From a virus, in the IMG/VR virus record IMGVR_UViG_3300028610_000830, positions 1-39,988 of that record: 39,988 bases of DNA, one strand, 5' to 3'. This document shows, one piece after another, positions 29,757 through 39,988 of the stretch (position 1 is its first letter; every line of letters starts with the position of its first letter). The notes beneath the pieces are model-generated. The model was not told the origin of the DNA, ran no database searches, and saw nothing but the letters and a program-made list of their open reading frames with translations. The translations under genes and the position numbers were made by a program.

Positions 29757-29986
29757 CGCTGGACGGCTACGGCTACGGCGACGGCTACGGCTACGGCTAC
29801 GGCTACGGCGACGGCTCCGGCTCCGGCTACGGCGACGGCGACGGCTACGGCTACGGCTACGGCGACGGCGACGGCGACGGCTCCGGCTACGGCTACGGCT
29901 CCGGCTCCGGCTACGGCTCCGGCTCCGGCTCCGGCTACGGCTACGGCTACGGCGACGGCTACGGCTACGGCGACGGCTCCGGCTAA
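29738..29986 (+). CDS. Gly-X low-complexity protein (GY/GD/GS repeats)
   Basis: After nine ordinary residues (MHPRLVTLD) the protein is 36 Gly-X dipeptides and a last Gly. X is Tyr 18 times, Asp 9 and Ser 9. All Gly codons are GGC. X codons are only TAC, GAC or TCC, each one base from TAC. The stop TAA could be a mutated TAC unit. It overlaps the DUF6948-like gene. If translated, it would be disordered, acidic and Tyr-rich. Codon uniformity suggests recent slippage growth; it may not be a functional protein. Confidence 0.5.
   Translation: MHPRLVTLDGYGYGDGYGYGYGYGDGSGSGYGDGDGYGYGYGDGDGDGSGYGYGSGSGYGSGSGSGYGYGYGDGYGYGDGSG
29765..29983 (+). repeat. GGCNNC hexanucleotide tandem repeat
   Basis: 36 uninterrupted 6-bp units of GGCTAC, GGCGAC or GGCTCC. 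No insertions break the six-base period. The mixture of three unit types forms a code-like order that differs between segments. Confidence 0.95.
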
Positions 29987-36872: not shown

Positions 36873-36960
36873 CTACGTGTGTGATTTAGTCCGCACCTGC
36901 ATTTTTGCTGCCTCACTTGAGGTGGAAGAAATGCAGGTGCCGTGTCCAAGACACGCTTTT
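36873..36960 (+). promoter_or_regulatory. Mutually exclusive hairpins upstream of the replication genes
   Basis: GCACCTGCATTT (36893-36904) pairs with AAATGCAGGTGC (36929-36940), a 12-bp stem. The loop contains CCTCA-CT-TGAGG. CTTGAGGT (36916-36923) in that loop also pairs with ACCTCAAG (36873-36880), which would exclude the first stem. CGTGTC-CAA-GACACG (36941-36955) follows with CTTTTCC. The layout looks like an attenuator or switch ahead of the initiator gene. Confidence 0.5.
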
Positions 36961-36972
36961 CCGTGATTAAGC

Positions 36973-36996
36973 CGTGACAGTCACGTGACGTACCGT
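36973..36996. promoter_or_regulatory. Initiator-binding motif cluster upstream of the O-like gene
   Basis: CGTGAC (36973), GTCACG (36980) and CGTGAC (36984) overlap in a 17-bp stretch that contains the palindrome GTCACGTGAC. CGTGACGTACCGT (36984-36996) is the exact reverse complement of 13 bases inside the origin array (37393-37405). Confidence 0.6.
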
Positions 36997-37008
36997 TATT
37001 GTAACGCC

Positions 37009-37764
37009 ATGTTCGCGAAAATATTCAAGCAGATGTATCACTCCTCAATCGCGGAGCACTACAAAACCCGCGTGGTGTTCATGGACATGCTGGTATTAGC
37101 TGATCAAGAGGGGGTTGTGGACATGACGCCAGAGAGCATCAGCGCGATTACCAGGGCACCCCTAGAAGACGTTACTGAGGCTCTAAAGATCCTTTCCTCA
37201 CCCGATCCGGCCAGTCGTTCCATGGCACACGAAGGCCGAAGAATCAAGCTCATCGACTCTCAGAGATTGTGGGGTTGGGCCATTGTTAACTACAAGAAAT
37301 ACAGGAACATACGTAGTTCGGACTTGCTTCGAGAATCCAACAGAATCAGGCAGCAGCGGAAGCGTGACAAAGCGAGGTCGTCACGTGATGTCACGGTACG
37401 TCACGCGAAGTCACGACAAGTAGAAGCAAAGGCAGAAGGAGATACAGGTACCAAGAAGACCCCCCGTACCCCCCGTGGGGGTTTCGCTCCTCCTTCGATT
37501 GAGGAAGTGAAACTAGCTGCCGCCAAAATAGGCCTGCCCGACACCGAAGCAGTCAAATTCCACGCCCACTACGAGTCAAACGGCTGGCGGGTAGGCAAAA
37601 ACCCCATGAAATTATGGATGGCAGCCCTTACCGGCTGGAAGCTGAGAGCTAATGAAAACGGCACAAAAACTGGTAACAAACGTTCTGGAGCAAATGAAGG
37701 CGTCGTCGGGGAGCACAAAAACCCCTACGCCATCCCAAACGCAGGCGATGAAAAACGCTCCTGA
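37009..37764 (+). CDS. Replication initiator, O-like/winged-helix protein
   Basis: From the ATG at 37009, 251 residues; a GTG at 36985 would add eight. Residues about 5-105 are the usual phage replication domain: 'FKQMYHSSIAEHYKTRVVFM', 'LADQEGVVDMTPESISAITR', 'HEGRRIKLIDSQRLWGWAIV', 'NYKKYRNIR'. A basic linker (about 106-160) carries the origin-like repeats at DNA level. The C-terminal domain ('KFHAHYESNGWRVGKNPMKL' and 'WMAALTGWK') resembles the part that recruits helicase or loader. The order initiator then loader matches lambda O and P. Confidence 0.8.
   Translation: MFAKIFKQMYHSSIAEHYKTRVVFMDMLVLADQEGVVDMTPESISAITRAPLEDVTEALKILSSPDPASRSMAHEGRRIKLIDSQRLWGWAIVNYKKYRNIRSSDLLRESNRIRQQRKRDKARSSRDVTVRHAKSRQVEAKAEGDTGTKKTPRTPRGGFAPPSIEEVKLAAAKIGLPDTEAVKFHAHYESNGWRVGKNPMKLWMAALTGWKLRANENGTKTGNKRSGANEGVVGEHKNPYAIPNAGDEKRS
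37363..37415. other. Iteron-like replication origin inside the initiator gene
   Basis: GTCACG occurs at 37380, 37390, 37400 and 37410, exactly 10 bp apart (one helical turn), plus an inverted copy CGTGAC at 37363. The array encodes the basic linker of the initiator (about residues 124-136). A purine- and A-rich stretch follows (37416-37460), then two ACCCCCCGT repeats and a GC hairpin (37468-37482). Iterons inside the initiator gene are the lambda ori arrangement. Confidence 0.7.
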
Positions 37765-38344
37765 GTTCGTCCATGACTTCGAGACCTTTGGCGACAATGG
37801 CCTGTCCCAGCTCCTGGAGGCTGCTCAGCGCTTCGCAGCCGATATCTGGCAGGGGAGGGCCGAAGTCGTCTACCGACGCGGTGAGCACCACAGCAAGCCG
37901 GGCAGGTGGCTAACGCTGCTTGGCAACAATGGGAACGGCAAAACGCATCTGATCAAGCGGCTGTTCCGTTACGCCAGGCGCCATTGCGAGGCGTTCAGGT
38001 GTCCCGTGACTACGGCAGTGCTCGGCCGGAGTTGCGTTTATCGTGATTGGCGCAAATTGCTCCCGGAGATTTACGAGGGCTCGTTCGGGCAGCTGGAGAA
38101 CCACCGTAAGGCGTGGCTGGTCGCCATTGACGACCTATGGGCGGCTCCGGATCGTAGTGCCCTGGGTGAATCGATCATCAACGCGCTCGCCACACGGGAG
38201 GACAAATGGACCCTGATCACCTCAAACAAGAGCCTCGAATGGATCGGACAGCACGACAAAAGGCTGGCTACCCGCATGAATCGATACGGCGAGGTGGTCC
38301 AGATCGATACAACCGATTTCAGCCTCAGGAAGGAAAAAGTATGA
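37652..38344 (+). CDS. DnaC-like AAA+ helicase loader
   Basis: Loads the host replicative helicase at the origin. Walker A GNNGNGKTHL (91-100), Walker B WLVAIDD (about 155-161), sensor 1 'LITSNKS' (about 188-194) and an arginine-finger region 'KRLATRMNR' (about 203-211) are visible. The first ATG overlaps the initiator gene by 113 bp. ATGs at 37694 and 37748 are alternatives; the last would give the small overlap usual here, but the longer N-terminus has a plausible amphipathic helix. No helicase gene is present, so host DnaB is likely used. Confidence 0.85.
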   Translation: MKTAQKLVTNVLEQMKASSGSTKTPTPSQTQAMKNAPEFVHDFETFGDNGLSQLLEAAQRFAADIWQGRAEVVYRRGEHHSKPGRWLTLLGNNGNGKTHLIKRLFRYARRHCEAFRCPVTTAVLGRSCVYRDWRKLLPEIYEGSFGQLENHRKAWLVAIDDLWAAPDRSALGESIINALATREDKWTLITSNKSLEWIGQHDKRLATRMNRYGEVVQIDTTDFSLRKEKV

Positions 38345-39930: not shown

Positions 39931-39988
39931 AGATCGGAAGAGCACACGTCTGAACTCCAGTCACGGTAGCATCTCGTATGCCGTCTTC
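39931..39988 (+). other. Illumina TruSeq index adapter (right end)
   Basis: AGATCGGAAGAGC begins the TruSeq indexed adapter, then a six-base index GGTAGC, then the flow-cell part. This is library sequence. Its fusion to base 39930 shows that reads ended at a fixed position, marking a physical terminus. Confidence 0.97.

Follow-up and report, generated by a model that had tools for sequence, protein, structure and literature searches.

A putative replication origin of GTCACG iterons and tandem hexamers inside a phage initiator gene

Does an array of short direct repeats within a phage gene mark the site at which replication begins, and what would be the role of the sequence that directly follows the repeats? 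The question is raised by a 39,988-nt stretch of viral DNA (IMG/VR record IMGVR_UViG_3300028610_000830), here called the window, in which an earlier note had proposed a lambda-like origin inside the gene of a replication initiator. According to the analysis described below, an in-gene origin is very likely (we put the probability at roughly 0.85). The initiator would act on the iterons, an adjoining tract of hexamers would serve opening or loading, and further copies of the motif, clustered upstream of the gene, would serve autoregulation, binding and origin activity being deduced from sequence.

The initiator gene, its iteron array and the hexamer tract

The gene at 37009..37764 on the plus strand encodes a protein of 251 aa, which was analysed using Pfam, PHROG, AlphaFold2 and family alignments. 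In the AlphaFold2 model (mean pLDDT 84), a confidently predicted N domain that resembles a winged helix is accompanied by a long helix and a distinct C domain. The predicted regions are the winged-helix N domain (residues 1-93), the long helix (95-140), a disordered stretch (144-155) and the C domain (163-220), which harbours the motif GW(K/R)VGKNPMK.W. Pfam returned a sub-threshold match to Phage_rep_org_N alone (E=0.0013), with no match to the lambda O family at E<=0.01 and none for the C-terminal domain. The PHROG matches were mostly to unnamed families, in addition to phrog_5968 'replisome organizer' (E=4e-4); NCBIfam gave no match, and no solved homologue of the N domain was found by sequence. 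Structure matches in the PDB were weak and consisted of winged-helix proteins (best E=0.41), and the viral fold matches included 'Replisome organizer' and 'Replication initiator protein'. Judged by these comparisons, the initiator family is uncatalogued and corresponds to no Pfam-level family.

The next gene (37652..38344, plus strand) begins before the initiator gene ends. It had been described as encoding a DnaC-like loader, and matches to phrog_50 (E=7e-12) and phrog_3277 (E=2e-7) confirm that its product is a DnaC-like AAA+ helicase loader. Single-protein scans revealed no close relatives of the initiator in viral contigs and no plasmid match, and no close relatives of the loader in phages; the one viral-contig match to the loader (L004) was discarded as a short P-loop match.

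Four exact copies of GTCACG start at 37380, 37390, 37400 and 37410 on the plus strand (span 37380..37415), corresponding to a spacing of exactly 10 bp. An inverted copy is located on the minus strand at 37363..37368, 17 bp ahead of the array. These positions, which had been reported previously, were confirmed exactly by a word scan. No other 6-mer forms an array of four exact copies with constant spacing in the whole 40 kb when spacings of 7-13 bp are considered. In codon-preserving shuffles of the initiator gene, a four-copy array was obtained in 0/3000 cases and a three-copy array in 12/3000. Further, the four copies are in codon phases 2, 0, 1 and 2, which means that all three phases are used. 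Together with the shuffling result, this indicates that selection acts at the DNA level, and the repeat thus belongs to the DNA rather than to the protein. Across the window the word GTCACG is not enriched (16 occurrences observed, 21.5 expected), and eight of the 16 are concentrated in 36973-37415. A generic repeat score was weaker for the gene (p=0.022), and the constant-spacing test of 6-mers was preferred for the window. The array shows no unusual strand folding (z=-1.8).

The array had also been proposed to encode a basic linker of the initiator. This has to be revised, since in the predicted model the residues encoded by the array (119-136) are located mostly within the long helix and not in a loose linker. 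The low-confidence stretch of the model, residues 144-155, lies beyond them.

Downstream of the last iteron, a junction of 4 bp (ACAA, 37416..37419, plus strand; family consensus NCAN) leads to a tandem tract of five degenerate RCAGAN copies (37420..37449, plus strand), which read in register GTAGAA GCAAAG GCAGAA GGAGAT ACAGGT. The tract starts exactly 10 bp past the start of the last iteron, and the iterons begin exactly 10, 20, 30 and 40 bp ahead of it. This flank, which is 78% purine, had been called A-rich; with a GC content of 0.44 versus 0.53 for the gene, it is better described as purine-rich RCAGAN hexamers and not as AT-rich in the lambda sense. A hexamer weight matrix built from 36 other loci, with the window excluded, ranks the site at 37420 first in 40 kb (score 19.5 versus -1.6 for the next independent site). 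Since the matrix was seeded with NYAGAN, the strictness of its AGA core is in part due to the seed.

Recurrence of the two-part element in related initiator genes

A scan with the N domain yielded 80 loci, 63 of which are distinct when the window is counted. An iteron word, defined by at least three copies and at least two regular spacings, is carried by 35 of the 62 members with enough upstream DNA. Same-strand iteron spacings show sharp maxima at 10 bp, with 41 cases, and at 9 bp, with 18, and most iterons start about 10, 20, 30, 40... bp ahead of the tract. The earlier note had named loss of the spacing in relatives as evidence that would speak against an origin; what we found is that the spacing is kept, the iterons of the relatives sharing a grid of about 10 bp. 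The word itself is phage-specific, with a core that is often GTNA(N)C-like (GTCAAC, GTCCAC, GTCAGC, GTAAGC, GTTAAC, GTTCAA).

The hexamer tract recurs as well. Period-6 tracts were detected in 27 of the 63 linkers versus 8 of 1230 other sequence windows of the same loci, and periods other than 6 are rare in the linkers, save 12 and 10. The mean GC content of the tracts in the relatives (0.49 versus 0.57 for the genes) indicates that the hexamer tract is not simply AT-rich. When 33 loci were aligned on the first hexamer, the last iteron was followed by the 4-bp NCAN gap and then by the hexamers, with C at position -5 in 25/32 and A at position -2 in 26/32 relatives. The window displays the same family pattern of N domain, 10-bp iteron grid, 4-bp gap and tandem hexamers. 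A first test of codon usage in the hexamers was dropped because it was circular, CAGA having defined the tract, and was replaced by a test on tracts defined at the protein level as (A/T/V)(E/D). In these, the codons are GCA in 59/59, ACA in 25/27 and GTA in 8/8 cases; elsewhere in the same genes GCA is used in 302 of 1544 cases.

The gene just downstream of the relatives' initiators encodes a DnaB-like helicase in 13/33 cases and a DnaC-like loader in 8/33. At the level of sequence comparison, the proposed location of an origin inside the initiator gene thus survives both the spacing grid and the synteny with loader or helicase genes.

The element is not always found in the linker. In the members L129, L133, L135, L158 and L170, the linker is without it and the element is located in the upstream non-coding DNA. 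Upstream of the L158 initiator, GTAATCC-type repeats are followed by CAATA and then by the hexamers GCAGAG GCAGAT; L170 has three copies of ACAGAT, and in L129, L133 and L135 the hexamers adjoin GTTAC/GTAAC repeats. Such relocation into non-coding DNA is a strong argument against an explanation based on the protein linker. In L130 and L105, the two-part element is absent from both the linker and the upstream region.

The junction was also searched as a DNA pattern, TCANCNCANRCAGANRCAGANRCAGAN, without any protein information. The 52 matches comprise 39 viral and 13 bacterial-genome stretches. At least 40 of the 52 are contained in ORFs with the N domain, and several others look like truncated or distant members. 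Among the 40 N-domain matches, 36 were outside the set that had suggested the pattern, and the N-domain genes found in this search are diverse (39 clusters). The reversed pattern gave 0 viral matches versus 39, and moving the tract by 3 bp as a register control gave 2 versus 39, the two being one sequence type, from a different initiator-like gene whose linker is (ET)n. The bacterial contigs with a family match include Burkholderiales, Verrucomicrobiales, Actinomycetota, Planctomycetota, Phycisphaerae and Polyangiaceae. In addition, L229 and L230 belong to another initiator-like family (MRWFRMYSEAVDDEKL...), in which a (GAGACA)n / (ET)n tract follows a basic linker. Their sequences suggest that hexamer tracts extend beyond the N-domain family.

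The C domain (37495-37668 in the window; RF.PP..EEV...GWKVGKNPMKDWKAA) is common to the initiators L005-L096, and the phages found through it carry very different N domains, many of them unrelated. Repeat clusters are present at p<=0.0125 (codon-preserving shuffle) in 45 of 58 dereplicated C-domain genes, mostly in the linker preceding the C domain, and their words vary from phage to phage. Examples are CAACCGGA at 11 bp (L026), TCCGGAG at 11 bp (L016) and CACGGTG at 10 bp (L005). In the near-twin genes L011 and L012, the repeat words are swapped while the flanking protein is nearly unchanged. The two genes differ mainly around the linker, with ATGCAAACG repeats in one and ATACCA/AATGGTA in the other, and this natural iteron swap should be useful for specificity work. 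Short coiled-coil proteins that have the C domain and no N domain were tried as negative controls and rejected; some of them score repetitive, apparently from heptad coding, and they are therefore not a clean control. Period-6-like tracts (AACCAA, GATGTA, AGATTAG) were also seen after the repeats in other initiator families (L042, L044, L079, L086, L016), and the choice of hexamer word may depend on the host or on the loader.

The motif cluster upstream of the initiator gene

Directly ahead of the start codon, at 36973..37006, there is a motif cluster which represents a putative operator for autoregulation. It consists of GTGAC at 36973 (minus strand), GTCACG at 36980 (plus strand), GTGAC at 36984 (minus strand) and the near-copy GTAACG at 37001. 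The 13 bp at 36984-36996 (CGTGACGTACCGT) are the reverse complement of 37393-37405 in the array, and this match sits within a 16-nt inverted pair of 94% identity. Both the upstream repetition of the motif and the 13-base reverse match had been pointed out in the earlier note and were verified in the sequence.

A weak sigma70-like match (GTGACA-17-TATTGT, 36974-37002) overlaps the cluster. This sole promoter-like match ends 7 bp ahead of the start codon and a ribosome site is not obvious; judged from the sequence, the initiator transcript is possibly leaderless. The gap preceding the gene also contains a very strong hairpin (36893-36955; DNA fold -21.7 kcal/mol, z=-6.3), and a second short stem comes after it. 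The hairpin could act in termination or as a structured single-strand site.

If the initiator regulates its own gene through the origin motif, the word of the linker is expected to recur upstream of the gene in the same phage. Indeed, the word was found at most 150 bp upstream in its own phage in 17 of the 35 relatives having an iteron word, versus 3.6 expected by a permutation in which words and upstream regions were reassigned among these relatives (p=1e-5). In control regions, 2-5 of 35 words were matched. The suggestion that a single shared motif serves both array and autoregulation thereby gains comparative support.

The proposed origin, its rivals and known origins

The origin reading builds on what the comparisons establish, which is the element with its register, its selection at the DNA level, its recurrence, the motif shared with the promoter and the synteny with helicase or loader genes. 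According to the proposed mechanism, the winged-helix domain of the initiator would bind the GTCACG iterons with one protomer per helical turn, and the protomers would form a nucleoprotein array along one face of the DNA. This array would end at the RCAGAN tract, whose first hexamer keeps a fixed distance of 10 bp to the start of the last iteron; at the tract, the duplex would be opened and/or one strand would be held in a sequence-specific manner. The DnaC-like loader encoded by the next gene would then place the replicative helicase. The initiator would also bind the motif upstream of its own gene, thereby repressing or tuning its expression. We infer the protein-DNA contacts, the melting at the hexamers, the helicase loading and the repression; for initiator loading and for opening of the tract or its presentation for helicase loading, the analogy is with lambda and SPP1. 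GC skew was uninformative, with no clear turn near 37 kb; the window is a linear fragment, and almost all of its genes share a strand.

The iterons of lambda are about 18 bp long, whereas the unit in the window is about 10 bp. Otherwise, the general layout is similar: the window has iterons inside the initiator gene, a flanking tract and an adjoining loader gene, and in lambda and lambdoid phages the initiator binds direct repeats in the middle of gene O, which are flanked by a special tract and followed by the helicase-loader gene (PMC7466680). In contrast to lambda, the initiator of the window is outside the lambda O family by Pfam, the loader is DnaC-like AAA+ and not lambda P, and the flanking tract consists of tandem RCAGAN and is not AT-rich. 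Thus, the term lambda-like is appropriate for the way of working but not for membership, no homology to lambda O or P having been found.

The origin oriL of SPP1 in gene 38 also comprises repeats inside the initiator gene and an adjacent unwinding region, together with a helicase loader and a DnaB-type helicase (PMC6316719). The window shares the direct repeats in the initiator gene and the loader downstream, and its relatives have a helicase or a loader next. SPP1 differs in that its unwinding element is AT-rich and in that it possesses a further origin, oriR (PMC6316719), while no second iteron array was found in the 40-kb window, a record that may be incomplete. For the Francisella phage KIRK, a putative ori with predicted iterons within the replication gene fhv_0043 was reported (PMC7924643). 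This is a single case with an AT-rich region, and a hexamer tract is not described in the accessible part of that source.

In oriC of B. subtilis, the DnaA-trios and the DnaD Recognition Element are short repeats beside the double-strand initiator sites, and they are engaged as single strand and guide strand-specific helicase loading (PMC10201434). The existence of such single-strand motifs next to initiator sites makes a sequence-specific role of the hexamers plausible, and the RCAGAN tract may be a functional analogue of these unwinding motifs. It differs from them in having hexamers with a period of 6 and not trinucleotides or TnnT pairs, and in being associated with a phage wHTH initiator and not with DnaA/DnaD.

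Based on these comparisons, we lean towards the view that iterons, a 4-bp gap and RCAGAN hexamers constitute a phage origin class of their own, in which the element for opening or helicase loading is sequence-specific and not AT-rich and which is used by an uncatalogued family of winged-helix initiators in phages and prophages across many bacterial phyla, and that this class, inside or upstream of the gene, is the phage counterpart of the DnaA-box/DnaA-trio unit. The hexamer element is apparently undescribed so far. A literature search for the hexamer sequences returned unrelated plant papers alone, and no paper on the in-gene iteron-hexamer signature was found in a search largely limited to literature outside subscription, so an earlier description is possible.

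The alternative that survives best, although we regard it as rather unlikely, accepts the origin and assigns the hexamers to another step, as tandem sites at which primase starts (on CTG of the complementary strand), as a host-factor site or as an RNA signal. E. coli DnaG starts at CTG, and in the commonest RCAGAN form the opposite strand reads 5'-CTG-3' once per 6 nt, but the hexamers GTAGAA, GGAGAT and GCAAAG of the window have no CTG on the other strand. As to an RNA signal, the tract can also be located upstream of the gene and is therefore not a message for the initiator mRNA alone. Moreover, the constant register between tract and iterons points to a coupling with the initiator. It is improbable that the array is no origin and serves only as a transcriptional operator, in the manner of an internal repressor site for additional autoregulation. 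Internal operators exist and the same motif is present at the promoter, but the hexamer tract in fixed register, the helicase/loader synteny and the upstream relocation of the whole two-part element would be left unexplained. The idea that the repeats arose only as a side effect of protein evolution, in which a low-complexity linker expands by slippage and the DNA has no function, is largely refuted: the linkers of the family are of low complexity, such as (AE)n, (DT)n and (AD)n, and slippage can yield tandem repeats, but the period of 10 is not divisible by 3, all three frames are used, A is in the third position for Ala, Thr and Val alike, the same words are found also in another frame, on the other strand and in non-coding DNA, and the junction spacing is fixed.

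A DNA signature as proposed here could map origins across many phages directly from sequence, since it led to the initiator gene at least 40 out of 52 times without protein similarity. An origin at this site would also make a clear example of a single stretch that carries two codes, that of a protein linker and that of an origin. The dozens of natural variants, in which the binding motif and its promoter copy change together, should be useful for understanding how initiator specificity changes, and the non-AT-rich hexamer tract is a testable proposal for DNA opening or helicase loading by such initiators.

Elsewhere in the window, the last ~58 bases (39931-39988; AGATCGGAAGAGCACACGTCTGAACTCCAGTCAC...ATCTCGTATGCCGTCTTC), which we take to be an Illumina TruSeq adapter with index, are an assembly artefact, and the GTCACG at 39960 belongs to this adapter sequence. 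Tandem repeats of 12 bp, of the GGCTAC/ACGGCT and GGCTCC types, are located at 29769-29950, away from the replication region.
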